NCBI RefSeq assembly: GCF_008107625.1
Contig: NZ_SDKK01000021.1
Coordinates: 52,989 to 85,501 of the forward strand
DNA: 32,513 bases
Source: Zoogloea oleivorans
GTDB lineage: Bacteria; Pseudomonadota; Gammaproteobacteria; Burkholderiales; Rhodocyclaceae
Direction of reading: 5' to 3'
A program made the translations under genes and the position numbers. Position 1 is the stretch's first letter, and each line of letters begins with the position of its first letter. The notes beneath the pieces were generated by a model. That model was not told where the DNA came from and did not search any database. It worked only from the letters and a program-made list of their open reading frames with translations. Positions 25,757-32,513 of the stretch are shown here, piece by piece.

Positions 25757-25784
25757 TGACCCGTCCTAACCCAGGTTGACACCT
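25757..25784. repeat. IS3 element inverted repeat (orfB-side end)
   Basis: 28-nt terminal repeat starting TGACCCGTCCT with a second conserved block GTTGACACCT. It pairs with 27071–27098 with five mismatches. Confidence 0.85.
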
Positions 25785-25804
25785 GTTGTGACGGATAAGC
25801 AGGC

Positions 25805-26641
25805 CTAACGGTTGGCCTGCAAAGACGCCCGATGAACTTCATCGGGCGTCTTCAATTGTAGCGAGCAATGCGGTCGCTCCGTGTTGTAGATGGCGATCGA
25901 CTGACGAACCATGTGCCGGGCCTGATTCAGATCGTCGGGCAGTTGGAGCAGAAACTCGTGCTTGAGAATGCCATTGACCCGTTCCGCCAAGGCATTCTGA
26001 TAGCAGTCGTAGCCGTCGGTCATCGAACAGATCAGTCCGTGTTTCTGGTGAATGGCCTGGTACTCATGGGCGCAGTATTGGATGCCGCGATCGGAATGAT
26101 GAACCAGCGGCTGCTGTCCCTGGCGCCCCTTGAGGGCCATCTTCAAGGCCTGGCTGACCTCGGCTGTGTGCAGGCTGTCATGGACGTGGTAACCGACGAT
26201 CTTGCGGGAGTAGGCATCGGTGACCAGGCTCAGGTAGGCGCAGCGCTCCCGGGTCGGCAGATAGGTGATGTCGGCGACCCAGACCTGCTCGCTGGCTTCG
26301 GCCTGAACCTGTTCCGGCCCCGCCTTAAGTAAATTCGGGTGGCGCCGGAAACGATGGTGACTGTCCGTCGTCTTGTGATACGCCCGCCGGGGCCGGACCA
26401 GCAGACGATTCCCGCGCAAGAGATCGAACAAGGCATCACGCCCGATGCCCAGGCCTTCGGCCATCAGCGCCGGGCGAATCAGGTGGTGCAGCTTGCGCGT
26501 GCCTAAGCGGGGCTGGCGCAAGCGCTTCTCCTTCACCAGGCCCACAATCCGTTCGTGCCGGGCTTCGTCGCACGCCCGACGGCGCTGCCATTGGTAGTGC
26601 GCCTGCCGGCTGATGCCCATGTAGCGGCAAGCCCTCGACAC
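25805..26641 (-). CDS. IS3-family transposase OrfB (integrase catalytic domain)
   Basis: The 278-aa OrfB carries the DDE integrase core: first Asp in VWVADITYLPT, second in VHHSDRGIQYC, Glu in NALAERVNGILKHEFL, all intact. N-terminal HTH_21-type segment: ACRYMGISRQAHYQWQRR. The first codon of this frame is GTG at 26641, but the frame is open upstream and joins orfA through the A6G site at 26686–26692, so the active transposase is most likely the OrfAB fusion. No stop or frameshift breaks the gene, suggesting a functional element. Confidence 0.93.
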   Translation of the reverse strand: MSRACRYMGISRQAHYQWQRRRACDEARHERIVGLVKEKRLRQPRLGTRKLHHLIRPALMAEGLGIGRDALFDLLRGNRLLVRPRRAYHKTTDSHHRFRRHPNLLKAGPEQVQAEASEQVWVADITYLPTRERCAYLSLVTDAYSRKIVGYHVHDSLHTAEVSQALKMALKGRQGQQPLVHHSDRGIQYCAHEYQAIHQKHGLICSMTDGYDCYQNALAERVNGILKHEFLLQLPDDLNQARHMVRQSIAIYNTERPHCSLQLKTPDEVHRASLQANR

Positions 26642-26643
26642 CT

Positions 26644-27045
26644 TCAGCCCTTCGACGGACTTTTGCGCGAGGACTTGCCCACAGGCTTTTTTACGACGTG
26701 CACCCCATAGTCCGTCTTCAGCACCTCGATCACCGCTTCAAAGAACCGGGATTTCTCCCGGGCCTCCTTGAGCTGGACTTCCAGTTCCTTGATCCGCTGC
26801 TCGGGCGTGAGCGTCGGGCTGTTCGGGCTTGGGTTCGGCTTACTCATGCGGCCGTAGTGTGCCATCGGCCCCCAGTTCTGGCGACCGTGCTTGCGTAGCC
26901 AGACCAGCACCGTTGATCGACCCTGGATGCCGTACCGGTCCTGCGCCTGCTTGTAGGTCAGTTCGCCTTTTTCCACTTGCTCGACCACCGCCAGTTTAAA
27001 AGCCAGCGTGTAGTCCTTCTGCGTCCTCTTGATCCCTGAGTCCAT
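26644..27045 (-). CDS. IS3-family transposase OrfA (DNA-binding)
   Basis: A 133-aa protein with an N-terminal helix-turn-helix (YTLAFKLAVVEQVEKGELTYKQAQDRYGIQGRSTVLVWLRKHG), then a leucine-zipper-like stretch (EQRIKELEVQLKEAREKSRFFEAVIEVL) typical for OrfA multimerisation. The ATG at 27045 follows GGGGAAG. Near the 3' end, A AAA AAG lies in the correct zero frame for a -1 slip, and the stop lies 13 codons after the slip site, 2 bases before the OrfB GTG. Confidence 0.93.
   Translation of the reverse strand: MDSGIKRTQKDYTLAFKLAVVEQVEKGELTYKQAQDRYGIQGRSTVLVWLRKHGRQNWGPMAHYGRMSKPNPSPNSPTLTPEQRIKELEVQLKEAREKSRFFEAVIEVLKTDYGVHVVKKPVGKSSRKSPSKG
26686..26692 (-). other. Programmed -1 frameshift heptamer (A AAA AAG)
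   Basis: On the minus strand the orfA codons are GTA AAA AAG. A -1 slip gives AAA AAA GCC TGT GGG ... which stays open into OrfB through KVSRACRYM. This is the usual IS3-family mechanism. Confidence 0.8.
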
Positions 27046-27070
27046 CTGACTTCCCCTCTCTTGACAGAAA

Positions 27071-27098
27071 AGGTGTCAACTTCTTTCAGGACGGGTCA
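27071..27098. repeat. IS3 element inverted repeat (orfA-side end)
   Basis: Reverse complement of the other end with 23 of 28 positions identical, ending ...ACGGGTCA at the element boundary, followed by the GTT target copy. Confidence 0.85.
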
Positions 27099-27107
27099 GT
27101 TGGAATA

Positions 27108-27139
27108 AAAAAGCCCCCGGTAAAAACCGGGGGCTTTTT
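27108..27139. terminator. Bidirectional rho-independent terminator
   Basis: 13-bp perfect stem (AAAAAGCCCCCGG / CCGGGGGCTTTTT) with loop TAAAAA. T-runs appear on both strands, so it can end the minus-strand electron-transfer operon (stop at 27156) and plus-strand transcription from the ettA side. The IS now lies between ettA and this hairpin. Confidence 0.92.
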
Positions 27140-27155: not shown

Positions 27156-29363
27156 TTACGGCAGGGCGACGATATAGGTCGCGCCTACGTAGGTCACATT
27201 CTGATTGGGCTTGAGATAAACCGAGGTGTTGTCGGAATACGCGAAGGGTGTTCCACCGTAACCCCAGGTCCACTCGTTCATCTTGGTGTGTTGATGGATC
27301 AGGTCAAGGCGCACGGCAGAATTCTTCTGTAGCGCGTACTTGCCGAACATCTTGACCGTGAATTGCCGGAAGGTAACGTCCGGCAAACCACCCGATGTGG
27401 CCAGAAGGGTTTTGTTGGCCGCCGAAGCGGAGGCATCCAGACCCTGGTTGTACTCGTTCTTGTCGTCGGTGAGCGTCAAGTCGGCACCGATATCAAGACG
27501 ACTGGTGGGCTTGCCCTTCACACCGATCCCGTAGGTGTCGCTCAGGTTGCGCAGAGCGGCCATGTAGCCGGTGGAGTGATCCACGTGCATGGTCTGATCC
27601 CCACGTGACCAGTAACCCGTGAGCTTCCACGCATCCGAGAGAATGTAGGCCAGGTCCATGCCGTAGAACGCCATGTGGCTGCTGTTGAGCCCTTTGGTCG
27701 TCGGCGCGGAGAACTTGTCTTCACCCCATTCGATCATGAACTGTACGGACAGCTGTTCAGTGGCAGCCCAGTCGGCTGAGGCCTTCAACTTGTCCCGCTG
27801 GCGATCGACCATGGACATCGGGAAAATCGCCGTGCGGCTGTAAATGGCGGAGTTGGATGTTTCGGTGACACCAAGTTCCGAGTTGGGCTTGAGCCAGCCG
27901 GAACCGCTGCGGTTGCTGCTCTGGTAGCCGACCGCCCCCGTGAGGGTTTCACTCATGGAACGGCGCAGTTCCATGCGGTAGCCGCTTTCCTCGGTCTTCT
28001 GGCGCAGGCCGCTCAAACCCGCGACCGAATTGGTCGGGACGAAGGAGCTGCGATCCAGCGACTCGTAATCGGCACCAAGGGTGGCACGGTAGCCCGCGGG
28101 CAACTGGTAGGTCGCTTCAAGCTTGCCGTTCAGGCGCTTCGGCGAGTAGTTGCCGTTGGTGAAAATCTTCGTGCCTTCGATGTTGTAGTAGGCGATCGGC
28201 GTCTTGTCGTTACGGTCTTCATAACGAACATTGGCCAGCAGCGACAACTTGGGCATCGGTCGCGAAGTCAGCCCGAACTGGTACAGACTGGTGTCGATGG
28301 ATCCACCGAGGTTGGTCCGCCCGTTGGGCGCATTGCCAAAACTCGAATAGTTGTCCGTCTGCGAGGCGTGGGAATAGGCGTACTTGAAGTTCGCCCGGGT
28401 CGTCGGCGTGAAGGCGTAGTTGCCGGACAGGAAAACCTGGTGAGCCTGATTGTCCGGCGGCAAGGCGATGGGAAGCTGCAGGATGCTCCGCAAACCTGAA
28501 GACAGGCCTGCTCCCCCCATGGGTGCGCCCAGGGGGTTGTTGAGGTTGCCGTCCACGGTCGCCGACATCGAGGTGTACTCGTTGTTGTAGAACGAACCGT
28601 AGTAGCCCCCCGACAGCAGCAACTTGTCATTTGAATAGTTGAGGCGGGCATCGAACTGCTTGGTGGTCGAGTTGATTGGCTCGGGAAGCATCAACAGCGC
28701 CCACTGGTTGATGCCTGTGGCTGCAGTCGTGCAGGTAGGCGCCGGCGCAGCCCCCGAGGGGCAGTTGAAACCATTGCCAAACAGACGGGCGCCGTTCTTG
28801 TCCTCGTTCTTGAAACTGGCTTCAAACTGCAGCGACTTGCTCAGCCACTTCTCAACCGAAACGGTGACGTTCTTGCGCTTGAGATTCAGGTTCAGCTCGT
28901 CACCGGAGCCCACAGTCGCCAGCCGTGAGACCAGCGGACTCGTGGAACCAGCGCCGATCAGGCTGGTGTTGATGGTGCGCGGATCGTGGCGGACCATCTC
29001 GTTATATTCCAGCGAGTACTTCCAGTCCCCCTGCTTCTGCTGCCCAAACTGCACTTCTCGCGTATCCAGCCCCAGATCACGGCCCTGAAGGGTCGTCCAG
29101 GTGCCGGTGGCATCGTCGCGCTTGATGTAGTCCAGGTCGAGCAGCAGATAGGTATCGTTGCGACGCAGACCGTTGTACTGGCCAAAGAAGCTGCGCTCGC
29201 TGCTGGAACCGCTAAGACCGGCAACACCTACGGCAACGGAACTGTCGGGACGGGTCAGCGCAGCGATGTCTTCATCTTCTGCATGGGCTTGGCCAAATGC
29301 AGCAAACAGGGCCAGCGCAAGGAGCTTGAGGCTGAAACCCGGGAGTGCTTTCGAGGTTCTCAT
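27156..29363 (-). CDS. MtrB/PioB-family outer-membrane beta-barrel (decaheme-associated porin)
   Basis: A 735-aa exported protein. Signal peptide: residues 1–28 (LKLLALALFAAFGQAHA). The rest is a series of short amphipathic strands rich in Tyr/Asn/Thr/Ser with alternating hydrophobicity (for example LLLSGGYYGSFYNNEYTS and KLSLLANVRYEDRND), as in 26–28-strand MtrB/PioB porins that sheath a decaheme cytochrome across the outer membrane. It follows the decaheme gene by 19 bases, the pairing expected for an MtrAB/PioAB conduit. Unlike Shewanella MtrB there is no CxxC near the mature N-terminus; the only Cys pair lies in one predicted loop (NCPSGAAPAPTC). The C-terminus ends VALP rather than in an aromatic residue. 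Confidence 0.9.
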   Translation of the reverse strand: MRTSKALPGFSLKLLALALFAAFGQAHAEDEDIAALTRPDSSVAVGVAGLSGSSSERSFFGQYNGLRRNDTYLLLDLDYIKRDDATGTWTTLQGRDLGLDTREVQFGQQKQGDWKYSLEYNEMVRHDPRTINTSLIGAGSTSPLVSRLATVGSGDELNLNLKRKNVTVSVEKWLSKSLQFEASFKNEDKNGARLFGNGFNCPSGAAPAPTCTTAATGINQWALLMLPEPINSTTKQFDARLNYSNDKLLLSGGYYGSFYNNEYTSMSATVDGNLNNPLGAPMGGAGLSSGLRSILQLPIALPPDNQAHQVFLSGNYAFTPTTRANFKYAYSHASQTDNYSSFGNAPNGRTNLGGSIDTSLYQFGLTSRPMPKLSLLANVRYEDRNDKTPIAYYNIEGTKIFTNGNYSPKRLNGKLEATYQLPAGYRATLGADYESLDRSSFVPTNSVAGLSGLRQKTEESGYRMELRRSMSETLTGAVGYQSSNRSGSGWLKPNSELGVTETSNSAIYSRTAIFPMSMVDRQRDKLKASADWAATEQLSVQFMIEWGEDKFSAPTTKGLNSSHMAFYGMDLAYILSDAWKLTGYWSRGDQTMHVDHSTGYMAALRNLSDTYGIGVKGKPTSRLDIGADLTLTDDKNEYNQGLDASASAANKTLLATSGGLPDVTFRQFTVKMFGKYALQKNSAVRLDLIHQHTKMNEWTWGYGGTPFAYSDNTSVYLKPNQNVTYVGATYIVALP

Positions 29364-29382
29364 GATGGTTCTCCCACTACTC

Positions 29383-30375
29383 TCAACGCAGGTTGAACTG
29401 CGGAGTCGGATTGGTTGCGCTCGGATTGTTGCTGCCGTGCACCTGGGTGTGGCAGTTCATGCAGCCCCGCGCCTGGGTGTAGTTGATGCCCGACTTGCCG
29501 CTCGATGTAGCGGTCGGTACGGTCGGCAACTGGCCTTGCAACTGTCCAAGCTGACCGCCATGAGGCGTGTGGCACTGGTGGCACAGGAAAGGCGCACGCA
29601 CCTTCAGGAGGCTTTCGGCAACCGTGCCGTGGGGGTTGTGGCAGTTGCCGCAATCCTCGTTGACCGGCTCATGGCTATGCACGAAGGGGCCGCGCTTTTC
29701 CATGTGGCAGGTGTAGCAGGTCTCGACCACGCTATCGCGCTTGACCAGCTTCGGACCGACAGAGCCGTGGGCGTTGTGGCAGTCCGAGCAGGCAACCTTT
29801 CCTTCCAGCACCGGATGGTGGGAGGGCTTGCTGACCTGGGCGCGCTGCTCCTTGTGGCAGGTGAAGCACACTTCGGGCTGGGTGCGCTTGTCAGCGACCT
29901 TGTCCTTGGCGGTATGCAACTGGTGGCAGGACGTGCACGCCACATCGGCACGCTGGTGGGCACTGCCTTCCCAGTGGGAACGCTTGGAATCCTTGCGGTG
30001 ACAAGAGATACAGGACTCGTTGCGGGCCTCTACCGGAGTAGTGGTCCCCTTACTGAAGTTGCGGTCGGTGGCTGGACGCGCCTTCAGCTTTTCGGGATTG
30101 TTCGTGTGCTTGTCACTTTCACCGTGACAGTTGGTACAGCTGGGAGTACGACCATCGGCCACGGTGCCGTGCTTGGTCTTGCCGATGTGCAGCAGCCTGG
30201 GTTCATCTGCTTCGTCGTGACAGGTGGTGCACTTGGCATCCCCCTTCAGGACCAGATCCTTGGCGGGCGGCTTGGCGCCGGCGGTTGCAGGGGCATCGGC
30301 TGCCAGAGCAGCGGAAGTGCCGGCAAGGGCCCCGAGCAACGCGCACGAGGCGAACAACTGTCGCAAGAATTTCAT
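29383..30375 (-). CDS. Periplasmic decaheme c-type cytochrome (MtrA/PioA/DmsE family)
   Basis: A 330-aa cytochrome with a signal peptide (about residues 1–26, FASCALLGALAGTSAALA). Ten CxxCH sites are present in order: CTTCH, CTNCH, CISCH, CTSCH, CFTCH, CSDCH, CYTCH, CGNCH, CHQCH, CMNCH; first heme at residues 49–53. Spaced His residues (HGTVADG, HWEGSAHQR, HHPVLEG, HSHEPVNE) can serve as distal ligands. Length and heme number match the MtrA/DmsE family, which sits inside an MtrB-type porin. The start ATG at 30375 follows GGGAG and gives the signal peptide; the open frame upstream overlaps the monoheme gene and is not real. No dms reductase genes are nearby, so an extracellular electron conduit is favoured. 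Confidence 0.95.
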   Translation of the reverse strand: MKFLRQLFASCALLGALAGTSAALAADAPATAGAKPPAKDLVLKGDAKCTTCHDEADEPRLLHIGKTKHGTVADGRTPSCTNCHGESDKHTNNPEKLKARPATDRNFSKGTTTPVEARNESCISCHRKDSKRSHWEGSAHQRADVACTSCHQLHTAKDKVADKRTQPEVCFTCHKEQRAQVSKPSHHPVLEGKVACSDCHNAHGSVGPKLVKRDSVVETCYTCHMEKRGPFVHSHEPVNEDCGNCHNPHGTVAESLLKVRAPFLCHQCHTPHGGQLGQLQGQLPTVPTATSSGKSGINYTQARGCMNCHTQVHGSNNPSATNPTPQFNLR

Positions 30376-30443
30376 TTTTTTCTCCCTGATACTGCTTTCG
30401 GTATTGAGGGCGACCGGCAAGACGGCCCCCCTCTTCGACCTGT

Positions 30444-30794
30444 TTACTTGCCGAGTGAAAGAATCCAGTCCGTCAGATTCTTGATCGCGACCTTGTCCTT
30501 GGTCTTGATGACTTTGTGTTCCTCTTCCTTGCCGTCCTCGAACTTGACCTTTTCGCCCGAAGTAAGGTGGTGCAACAATTTGGCTTCGGCATCTGCCTTG
30601 CCCTTCAAGGACTTCGAGATTTCGGTGAGCGACTTGGCTTCCTTCTTTTTGTCCACCGCGTGGCACTTGAGGCAACCTTCCTTCTTGGCGAGGGCCTGAG
30701 CCTCGTCGGCGTCGAAGGCAAAGGCCTGCGTGGACATCAGCAGACCTGCAGCACACAGGCCGGACATCATTGCAGTCATAACTTTGGCATTCAT
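30444..30794 (-). CDS. Small monoheme cytochrome c (putative periplasmic shuttle)
   Basis: A 116-aa protein with a signal peptide (about 1–27, ending TQAFA) and one heme site CLKCH (41–45). The end NLTDWILSL is the C-terminal helix of class I cytochromes c. However, no Met occurs after residue 20, so the usual His/Met ligation is impossible; His75, His76 or His93 must be the distal ligand, His93 being near the place where Met normally sits. The mature protein is very Lys/Glu-rich. Good ribosome site (AAGGAGAG). It lies between the cytochrome b gene (45 bases) and the decaheme gene (68 bases), and by analogy with MtoD may carry electrons across the periplasm. Confidence 0.9.
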   Translation of the reverse strand: MNAKVMTAMMSGLCAAGLLMSTQAFAFDADEAQALAKKEGCLKCHAVDKKKEAKSLTEISKSLKGKADAEAKLLHHLTSGEKVKFEDGKEEEHKVIKTKDKVAIKNLTDWILSLGK

Positions 30795-30839
30795 ATCAAC
30801 TCTCCTTGAGGTCGTTTTTTCGATTTTGGGGGACGTAAA

Positions 30840-31454
30840 TCAGTGCTCGTACCAACCGGTAAACATCATCTTGAACAAGCTGGAAACTTTCGGACCCATG
30901 GTGCCCAGGTAGATGTGGCTCACCATGAACAGCAGGATCACAGCCGCGCCGAGGTAATGGACCAGGGCGACAGGCAGCAGGCCGTCGAGGCCGAACAAAC
31001 GGTCCGGAGCGAACTGGGGATACAGGAAGACCAGCCCGGTGAGGATCACGACCGGCATCACCAGATACATGATCGACCAGTAGGTGACGGCCTGCAGAGC
31101 GTTGAAGTTGACTTCCGGGGTGGGCGGGAAAGGTTCGGCCTCACCCTTGAAGATGCCCACGCCGTAGAACTGCATCTGCTTCAGGCAGCGCCCGATGATG
31201 CCGGGGGGCTTGGGTACGTATTGCCACCAGTTGCCGGTCAGGATGTTGCCGGTCACGAACACCGCGTACAGCACCGCAAGGCAGACACCGGCCACGTTGT
31301 GAACGCGCGCTGCCAGCGAGAACTCCACCAGAGGCAGGCTGGGATCGGCAAAGTGCAGGCTGATCCCGGTGATCGACAGCACGACGATCGCCAGGGCGTT
31401 GCTCCAGTGCCACAGGCGTATCCACAGGGGCAACATGAAAATGCGCTTAGTCAT
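30840..31454 (-). CDS. Di-heme cytochrome b, b561/FdhGamma type (quinone-interacting)
   Basis: A 204-aa inner-membrane protein with four main transmembrane helices (about 15–35, 48–72, 122–146, 160–184). Four His at 16 (RLWHWSN), 52 (ARVHNVAG), 166 (VHYLGA) and 180 (VSHIYLGTMG) are placed to hold two b-type hemes as in the cytochrome b561/Ni-hydrogenase and formate dehydrogenase gamma family. The ending GTMGPK...FTGWYEH resembles that group. It would exchange electrons between the quinone pool and a periplasmic partner. Its start overlaps the upstream heptaheme gene by 8 bases, strongly suggesting that the two proteins form one complex. Confidence 0.93.
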   Translation of the reverse strand: MTKRIFMLPLWIRLWHWSNALAIVVLSITGISLHFADPSLPLVEFSLAARVHNVAGVCLAVLYAVFVTGNILTGNWWQYVPKPPGIIGRCLKQMQFYGVGIFKGEAEPFPPTPEVNFNALQAVTYWSIMYLVMPVVILTGLVFLYPQFAPDRLFGLDGLLPVALVHYLGAAVILLFMVSHIYLGTMGPKVSSLFKMMFTGWYEH

Positions 31455-32418
31455 GGTTCTTGCTCCTGCGCAGACGAGTCGTAATGATGCGGACGAGGCC
31501 GTGACCGATCACGCCAACGACAGTGGCGACGAACAGGACGATGAGGATGAGGTCGAGGGACGGGTTGCGGGTTGCCCCCACCACGTAGGAATTGCTCAGG
31601 ATCACGCTGTTGATGAAGCCGTACTTGTTCTGCTCTTCAGTTTGCAGGTGACGGTAAAGACGGGCATTCAGCGAACTGTTGGCGGTGTGGCAACTCGCGC
31701 ACTTTTTTTCGGCCTTGTCCTTGTTCTGGATCTCGTGGGAGAGAGAAAGCTTGTCTTCAGTCGGTGTGTGGCATTCCACACAGCGCACGGCCTTCCAGTG
31801 CAGGCGGGTGTTGGGCAGCCAGTCGTGAATGTCGTCGATGGGCGGACGCTTTTTCTTGTCCGGCGCCATCTTGGCGAAGGCGATGTCGGAGTCGTGACAA
31901 TCCAGGCAGATCTTGTTGTCCTGGGCGACGATCTTGTGCGGGTCACGCAGCTTTGTCGCGACGGCCATCACGTGGGGGTCGTGGCAAGTGGCGCAGGTAA
32001 AAGTGTCACTGAGGTTCTCGGCATGCACCGACTTGTCGAACTGGCGTTCGATGCGCATGGCCTTGCGAGCGTGGCAATCCTGGCATTCGCTGATGCCTTC
32101 CCTCGCCTTCGCCGCGTGGGGATGTTCGTCGTAGCCGTCGCCATGACACTTGCTACAGGCCATCTGGCCGTGGTCGGATGCCGTAAAGGTATCCAGATGA
32201 ACCAGATGTTCGCGCAGCTTCTTGAGATCCATTCCTTCCTTGGGCGGTGCCTTCAGCCCTGCTTCGGAGTGGCATTTCAGGCATTCACCATTGGCGGCCC
32301 GAATTTTCACCAGCGCTTCGGGGGATGGGGGTGGATCGTCGGCAAAGACAGGCGCGGCGACCACGAAGGCCAGCAGCGCCAAAATCCCGCCAAAACGTTT
32401 TTTTATTTTCCCGAACAC
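31447..32418 (-). CDS. Heptaheme c-type cytochrome with C-terminal membrane anchor
   Basis: A 323-aa protein: signal peptide 1–26 (FGGILALLAFVVAAPVFA), seven CxxCH sites (CLKCH at 46–50, CSKCH, CQDCH, CATCH, CLDCH, CVECH, CASCH), then one transmembrane helix near residues 287–311 (LDLILIVLFVATVVGVIGHG) and a basic cytoplasmic end. Thus the hemes are periplasmic and tethered by the C-terminus, unlike NapC/CymA proteins, which have an N-terminal anchor and four hemes. Paired with the overlapping cytochrome b gene it forms a plausible quinol-oxidising or quinone-reducing module. The start is GTG at 32418, preceded by GAGGAA at good spacing. It is the first gene of the visible operon. Confidence 0.93.
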   Translation of the reverse strand: MFGKIKKRFGGILALLAFVVAAPVFADDPPPSPEALVKIRAANGECLKCHSEAGLKAPPKEGMDLKKLREHLVHLDTFTASDHGQMACSKCHGDGYDEHPHAAKAREGISECQDCHARKAMRIERQFDKSVHAENLSDTFTCATCHDPHVMAVATKLRDPHKIVAQDNKICLDCHDSDIAFAKMAPDKKKRPPIDDIHDWLPNTRLHWKAVRCVECHTPTEDKLSLSHEIQNKDKAEKKCASCHTANSSLNARLYRHLQTEEQNKYGFINSVILSNSYVVGATRNPSLDLILIVLFVATVVGVIGHGLVRIITTRLRRSKNHD

Positions 32419-32513
32419 GTGAATTCCTCGAATTTAACAACTGGAGAAATTATCGGCTCCCAACTTTTCACTAGAAGATTTTGATACGGTGAATCGTAAG
32501 CGTCCAGCCAAGT
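32419..32513 (-). other. Leader of the electron-transfer operon (to window edge)
   Basis: 95 bases upstream of the heptaheme GTG. It holds the GAGGAA ribosome site and an AT-rich stretch containing GATAAT; a promoter is plausible but no -35 can be assigned. An ATCAA half-site occurs near 32475 without a matching second half. Whether further operon genes lie beyond the edge cannot be seen. Confidence 0.4.

Follow-up and report, generated by a model that had tools for sequence, protein, structure and literature searches.

Mto-type electron conduits with different quinone ends have already been described (PMC5566968; PMC6295460), and on an anode a Zoogloea metagenome-assembled genome (MAG) with a five-gene cluster of the same make-up as the one considered here increased its share of mapped reads from 0.01 to 7.2% (PMC8258643, 2021). 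The accessible parts of the latter report note no characterized homologue for three of the genes, encoding the b-type and two c-type cytochromes, and give no slot, exchange, regulator, or quinone-end assignment; the likeness drawn here is one of gene make-up. The five-gene cluster is therefore already known, and the original prediction that it is a distinct betaproteobacterial variant of the Mto/Mtr systems is toned down accordingly. We analyzed such a cluster in a window of 32,513 nucleotides, which is the end of a contig (C73) in the 5.68-Mb genome of Zoogloea oleivorans, and comparison with relatives suggests that its outer-membrane half has been exchanged in place, with a joint inside the decaheme cytochrome. 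The reading that we favor, at a probability of roughly 0.65, is that of an Mto-type trans-envelope conduit with a split quinone enzyme, FNR-switched and exporting electrons, whose outer unit has been exchanged.

The locus is real and intact, and it is conserved in part of the genus. All five genes are present on the minus strand, in the order HEPTA-CYTB-MONO-DECA-PORIN and separated by -8, 45, 68, and 19 bp, in line with the single orientation and short gaps or overlaps noted at the outset. DECA (29383..30375, minus strand, starting at an ATG) is a decaheme cytochrome of the MtrA/MtoA/DmsE family, with ten CXXCH motifs, a score of 280.8 bits to TIGR03508 (curated cutoff, 192.2), and a match to 6r2q_A at 1.2e-64, the query used in these family and structure searches (P0002) having two extra residues before the Met; 6R2Q is MtrCAB and its chain A is MtrA (PMC12203936). 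A longer GTG frame of DECA from 30756 would overlap the MONO gene and is not needed. PORIN (27156..29363, minus strand), adjacent to DECA, is an MtrB/PioB outer-membrane barrel that scores 381 bits to TIGR03509 (curated cutoff, 240.05), the sole match in the genome, and matches PF11854 at 3.7e-131. These family matches are far above chance, and a ten-heme MtrA/DmsE cytochrome next to an MtrB/PioB barrel, both above cutoff, is the make-up of an MtrAB/MtoAB/PioAB-type conduit, which would carry electrons across the outer membrane. MONO (30444..30794, minus strand; one CXXCH; PF00034 at 1.1e-4) is a periplasmic monoheme cytochrome that we consider MtoD-like by comparison with the monohemes of five MtoAB-type clusters, being 44 to 55% identical to the monohemes beside the MtoAB pairs of those five other genomes.

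The gene families thus support the quinone-to-surface conduit of the Mto/Mtr kind that had been predicted from the sequence, with some corrections. The count of c-type hemes by CXXCH motifs is 18 (seven in HEPTA, none in CYTB, one in MONO, and ten in DECA), not 19. The absence of an extracellular partner holds: no OmcA/MtrC-family decaheme is above cutoff in the genome (one 19-bit match lies below it), and MtrC/OmcA is found in 0 of 23 genomes of the genus at E <= 1e-10. The absence of CymA holds for the block, as none of its five proteins matches the NapC/NirT family (PF03264, CymA-type), but not for the genome, which encodes two NapC/NirT proteins elsewhere, one of them in a nap-like cluster recognized by eye. 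The second, a NapC-type tetraheme away from the nap-like cluster (L125:4352-6836), lies beside a 461-aa protein with one CXXCH and is a candidate alternative quinol donor.

At the inner-membrane end, HEPTA (31447..32418, minus strand) is a heptaheme c cytochrome with seven CXXCH motifs, and its hydropathy profile shows a signal-like hydrophobic stretch at the N terminus and, at the C terminus, a membrane helix that carries His306, invariant in 16/16 rows. With a query (P0001) that carried V for the GTG start, searches of Pfam and NCBIfam return only generic multiheme matches, and the best solved-structure match is 28pb_A ('Cytochrome c') at 3.6e-7. CYTB (30840..31454, minus strand), whose start overlaps the HEPTA stop by 8 bp, is a b561-type quinone subunit with four helices by hydropathy and a match to PF01292 at 6e-24; its best NCBIfam model is PRK15006 (thiosulfate reductase cytochrome b), at 161.7 bits and under the cutoff of 204. 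Four histidines, H16, H52, H166, and H180, are candidates for binding the b hemes and do not vary in any of 14 aligned b561 rows, and the two b hemes of the original prediction are accordingly to be expected. Five other genomes have the MONO-DECA-PORIN core with another quinone end instead of HEPTA-CYTB: in three (L109, L111, and L112) the core adjoins a one-piece protein that has eight hemes and a b-type membrane part, and in two (L113 and L114) a NapC/CymA-type tetraheme. The one-piece proteins read from a heme domain through a membrane helix with a His to a b part, and HEPTA-CYTB has the same MtoC/CbcL-like order of heme domain, His-bearing membrane helix, and PF01292-type b domain, although spread over two genes and not in one chain. 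With the His in the C-terminal helix of HEPTA and CYTB starting just before HEPTA stops, the pair is laid out like an MtoC cut in two, and by this analogy it looks like a split counterpart of the one-piece MtoC/CbcL quinone enzymes.

HEPTA-CYTB also occurs in other company. In a genome of another genus of the family (G053; L050:8366-14487) the pair has for neighbors a diheme protein, a TorD-like chaperone, and a PhsA-like molybdoenzyme (Tat-like signal; 267 bits against a cutoff of 694), so that it looks like a general quinone module; the molybdoenzyme cluster is possibly a periplasmic reductase system in its own right. At two further loci (L042 and L043), a b561 gene adjoins the gene for a nine-heme HEPTA relative with a His in its C-terminal helix, which makes a second split pair of the multiheme-b kind in the family.

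Linkage of the genes is firm within the genus and loose outside it. HEPTA and MtrB are found in the same 14 of 23 Zoogloea genomes, with one MtrB match each, and the other nine, five of which are listed as at least 92% complete, have neither; the closest named relative at the locus is a Zoogloea oleivorans MAG, with HEPTA 92% identical. The block occupies a fixed slot: all 14 relatives have a MOSC gene upstream, and one and the same ABC-F gene follows downstream in 14 of 15 rows (all but L007). In one block-less genome (G014) the slot is empty, the MOSC and ABC-F genes being about 80 bp apart. The family's other genera, sampled with 37 genomes, give four strong HEPTA matches (G029, G033, G047, and G053) and two weak ones (G028 and G039). 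MtrB is adjacent to HEPTA in G033, on another contig in G053, and in G029 (L047:8377-18999) about 2.6 kb away on the opposite strand, with MtrC. At this last locus HEPTA-CYTB-MONO faces a divergent cluster of MtrB, MtrA, a 131-aa protein, and MtrC, the same inner module thus occurring with a full MtrCAB. All five genes are also present in UBA1934 (L016), where they are ordered DECA-PORIN-HEPTA-CYTB-MONO, and Propionivibrio dicarboxylicus has two partial copies, both at contig ends. Across the order, HEPTA is found at E <= 1e-30 in one of 399 sampled genomes, the window's own, in a sample that has at least 12 other genomes of the family and so says little about the family. A Bacteroidetes MAG (L019:9989-11946) carries HEPTA (33%) and CYTB (30%) with a monoheme-type neighbor.

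The region upstream of the operon carries a putative regulatory signature. A TTGATNNNNATCAA site, matching the FNR consensus with at most one mismatch, starts 98 or 99 bp before the GTG of HEPTA in 14/14 relatives and is perfect in seven; only 15 such sites, those 14 included, occur when one strand of the same 14 loci is scanned (268,426 positions). In eight upstream stretches from outside the genus there is one single-mismatch site only, in L047. Expression in the absence of oxygen is implied by the conserved site, and an FNR-type regulator is predicted to control the operon. A conserved -10-like GATAAT (32449..32454, minus strand) lies 31 to 36 bp before the GTG and is present in 5/5 aligned upstream regions. 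In the window itself the contig stops 95 bp upstream of HEPTA, so that the operon is complete and its promoter region cut. The contig edge (32496..32513, minus strand) is the end of a multicopy insertion sequence, presumably of the IS66 kind from the look of its ends, adjoining an 8-bp repeat, GATTCACC (32488-32495). Nine copies of this terminus occur in the genome, at least six within 120 bases of a contig end, and a similar terminus, together with the repeat GATTCACC and the MOSC gene, is found at the end of contig C53; joining the C73 and C53 flanks at the repeat yields a perfect FNR-type site at -100. In the window's strain, an insertion sequence, the junction of which is unassembled, therefore probably separates the operon from its FNR-type site.

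A plausible path for electrons follows from these assignments. CYTB and HEPTA would form one quinone oxidoreductase in the inner membrane, in which electrons from quinol would pass through the two b hemes of CYTB to the seven c hemes of HEPTA in the periplasm, and MONO, like MtoD, would shuttle them from HEPTA to heme 1 of DECA. DECA, sheathed by PORIN, would cross the outer membrane and expose heme 10 on the outside, without MtrC on top. An FNR-type regulator would turn the operon on under anoxia, and the most likely use is export to an electrode, a metal, or a humic-like acceptor when acceptors are scarce. Export from quinol to the outside under anoxia is moderately favored by the anode enrichment, the reductase-like partner of the pair in G053, and its MtrC partner in G029.

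Several observations weigh against this reading. Sequence homology between HEPTA-CYTB and MtoC is weak: in a comparison of 10 proteins run with filters off, the b parts of the three one-piece proteins match at E values of 1e-4 to 8e-4, c-heme matches between HEPTA and the one-piece proteins are biased by repeats, and PF01292 scores 28.9 and 26.8 bits in two of the one-piece proteins (cutoff, 30.1) and is unlisted for the third. An AlphaFold2 model of HEPTA built from 12 rows is too poor to use (mean pLDDT, 49.2). Close homologs whose block is always tied to a soluble terminal reductase, or a lack of conserved linkage between the b/heptaheme pair and the decaheme-porin pair, had been named at the outset as refuting the prediction, and outside the genus these are seen in part, in the G053 pair beside its PhsA-like molybdoenzyme and in G047, which has the HEPTA-CYTB pair and no MtrB match in its genome; the stretches retrieved for L019 and L020 likewise show no MtrAB. 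The slot is cleanly empty only in G014 among the five block-less genomes examined, the other four having the MOSC gene and no ABC-F match in the fetched stretch. The menaquinone markers MqnA/D are not found in the genome and MenD has no match above cutoff there (three lie below). Ubiquinol is a weak reductant for low-potential acceptors, which would favor a high-potential acceptor, another quinone, or inward flow. Control by FNR also fits nitrate-dependent Fe(II) oxidation, and so accommodates both export and import. Zoogloea probably makes rhodoquinone; among the papers listed by a literature search on this point, none mentions Zoogloea.

Electron import is the foremost alternative. Here an MtoAB-like conduit would take up electrons from Fe(II) or a cathode and ubiquinone would be reduced via CYTB; the electrons might end up on nitrate. 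Inward flow is favored by the lack of MtrC, by the two menaquinone markers not found, by the presence of the nap-like cluster, and by the likeness to mto operons, the nearest known layout, mtoABCD, being assigned to Fe(II) oxidizers. However, Zoogloea with a cluster of the same make-up was enriched on an anode, and in G053 the HEPTA-CYTB pair sits with a reductase-like molybdoenzyme; we consider import unlikely and retain export as the preferred direction.

Across the 15 rows compared, which are the window and 14 relatives, identity to the window is 81 to 93% for HEPTA and CYTB and 69 to 87% for MONO where listed. DECA-PORIN, in contrast, comes in two types, with porins 70 to 100% identical to the window in five rows and 31 to 32% in ten, and types I and II occupy one slot, between the MOSC and ABC-F genes. 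Their histories are mismatched with that of the inner module. In the porin tree, type I groups with G073 and G039 and type II with UBA1934, each with support of 100/100. In the HEPTA+CYTB tree (20 of 22 rows, L019 and L020 being left out), the genus is one clade (96/99) within which the types are mixed, with three changes, at least two of them forced by well-supported branches, and a single type I clade is rejected (approximately unbiased [AU] test, p 0.0001). The porin, HEPTA+CYTB, and DECA part-trees all carry long-branch warnings.

L014 (type I) and L015 (type II) are sisters in the HEPTA+CYTB tree (100/99). Their DNA is 91 to 97% identical up to the start of DECA, 64 to 85% in DECA, 31 to 64% in PORIN, and 95 to 99% in the ABC-F gene; same-type pairs lack such a drop, with porin at 69 to 89% for L014 and L007 and 56 to 82% for L015 and L010. 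Within DECA, residues 1 to 100 (hemes 1 and 2) are 83% identical between types compared with 85 to 86% within, whereas from residue 101 identity is 59% between types and 90 to 92% within (averages for 12 of 15 rows, from 32 between-type pairs and from 28 and 6 within-type pairs). This codon comparison left out L008, L009, and L011, had no MONO for L014, and used L015 HEPTA and L014 PORIN trimmed at the start; there are apparent frame breaks in L009 DECA and L015 HEPTA, which are assembly errors or decay. Trees of the two parts were built without eight of the 29 rows, namely seven far ones and L009, whose DECA is broken into two frames. They reject a type I clade for residues 1 to 100 (p 0.006) and a genus clade for residues 119 to 330 (p 4e-9); for residues 1 to 100 the genus clade is weakly supported (66/0), and one long row, L056, falls beside the genus.

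The joint thus lies inside DECA, so that the periplasmic tip would be retained and the in-barrel wire and barrel exchanged. The two versions at one slot suggest in situ exchange of a unit comprising DECA hemes 3 to 10 and PORIN (27156..30075, minus strand), the native tip being residues 1 to 100 of DECA (30076..30375, minus strand), which follows the genus by identity and part-trees; the junction is placed only within approximately residues 80 to 120. We think it likely that in Zoogloea the outer-membrane half is a replaceable cassette that joins inside the decaheme near hemes 2 and 3, so that a new barrel and wire would be fused to the tip already in place and would remain matched to the host's own quinone enzyme and FNR-type switch. 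Over time, Zoogloea species would swap the unit at the same slot by recombination, while HEPTA, CYTB, MONO, and the periplasm-facing tip would stay through the swaps; retaining the tip may keep docking to MONO or HEPTA intact, and shifts in the substrates outside the cell, or pressure from phages on the barrel, would drive the turnover.

Alternatively, the two versions could stem from an old tandem duplication with differential loss and not from exchange between lineages, as might be imagined from their presence at one slot and from donors that are not identified at the species level. This seems improbable, as all 14 carriers have a single MtrB match, L014 and L015 diverge sharply in the porin between closely similar flanks, and the decaheme tip still follows the genus; we therefore keep to exchange. 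Somewhat less probable still is a role of HEPTA-CYTB-MONO in feeding a soluble reductase of the periplasm or a detoxification enzyme, with MtrAB a mere neighbor, an idea fed by the molybdoenzyme and chaperone of G053 and the lack of an MtrB match in G047 and countered by the perfect co-occurrence and contiguity in the genus and by relatives of MONO that accompany MtoAB in other genera without HEPTA.

Downstream, the operon is followed by an intrinsic terminator with a perfect 14-bp stem and then a T-run (27108..27139, minus strand). Between it and the ABC-F gene, which comes after the porin in 13 of 14 relatives, lies an IS3-like element, named by eye, at 25757-27098, with open reading frames at 25805-26641 and 26644-27045 and 34-nt terminal inverted repeats that are 79% complementary.

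If the cassette reading is true, this is natural modular engineering of an electron conduit. The joint suggests where nature cuts an MtrA-type wire, with the periplasmic tip keeping its docking partners as the barrel and in-barrel hemes change, and for work that grafts outer-membrane conduits onto other hosts the cut point is a direct design rule that can be tested. A common wastewater genus also gains a plausible oxygen-switched route of extracellular respiration, and the genome is one in which neither of two menaquinone marker families was found.

Among known systems, Geobacter sulfurreducens CbcBA is an inner-membrane pair of a heptaheme c cytochrome and a separate di-heme b cytochrome, and Geobacter uses other conduits and menaquinone; the likeness of CbcBA to HEPTA-CYTB that is drawn here is one of layout, which makes the pair a candidate for the closest architecture. 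CbcBA has a low-potential role (PMC12307469). Shewanella MtrCAB has the MtrA and MtrB families in common with the Zoogloea block, which is without MtrC and CymA. The spread of mtrCAB is described as modular and horizontal (PMC8805035), with no joint inside MtrA mentioned in the accessible portion of that account. Among the papers listed by weak searches of the open-license literature, nearly all of them off topic, there is no report of MtrAB-unit exchange or a chimeric MtrA, and the listings of further searches in that literature show none of a split pair as an MtoC counterpart. CymA-MtoABD of Sideroxydans lithotrophicus ES-1 shares the decaheme-porin pair and the monoheme shuttle, but its quinone end is a NapC-type tetraheme, which is absent from the Zoogloea block (PMC5566968). 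The mtoABCD cluster of Dechloromonas aromatica likewise groups MtoA and MtoB with the monoheme MtoD and a quinone enzyme of the multiheme-b kind, a likeness that rests on the relatives of that layout (L109, L111, and L112); MtoC of D. aromatica is one polypeptide, whereas in Zoogloea its role would be split over two genes, with seven c hemes. The operon is accordingly a variant of the known Mto-type kind in which the one-piece MtoC is replaced by two genes, and its new and testable part, in a gene cluster of a make-up already reported, is that the outer unit has probably been exchanged, with the joint lying within the decaheme.

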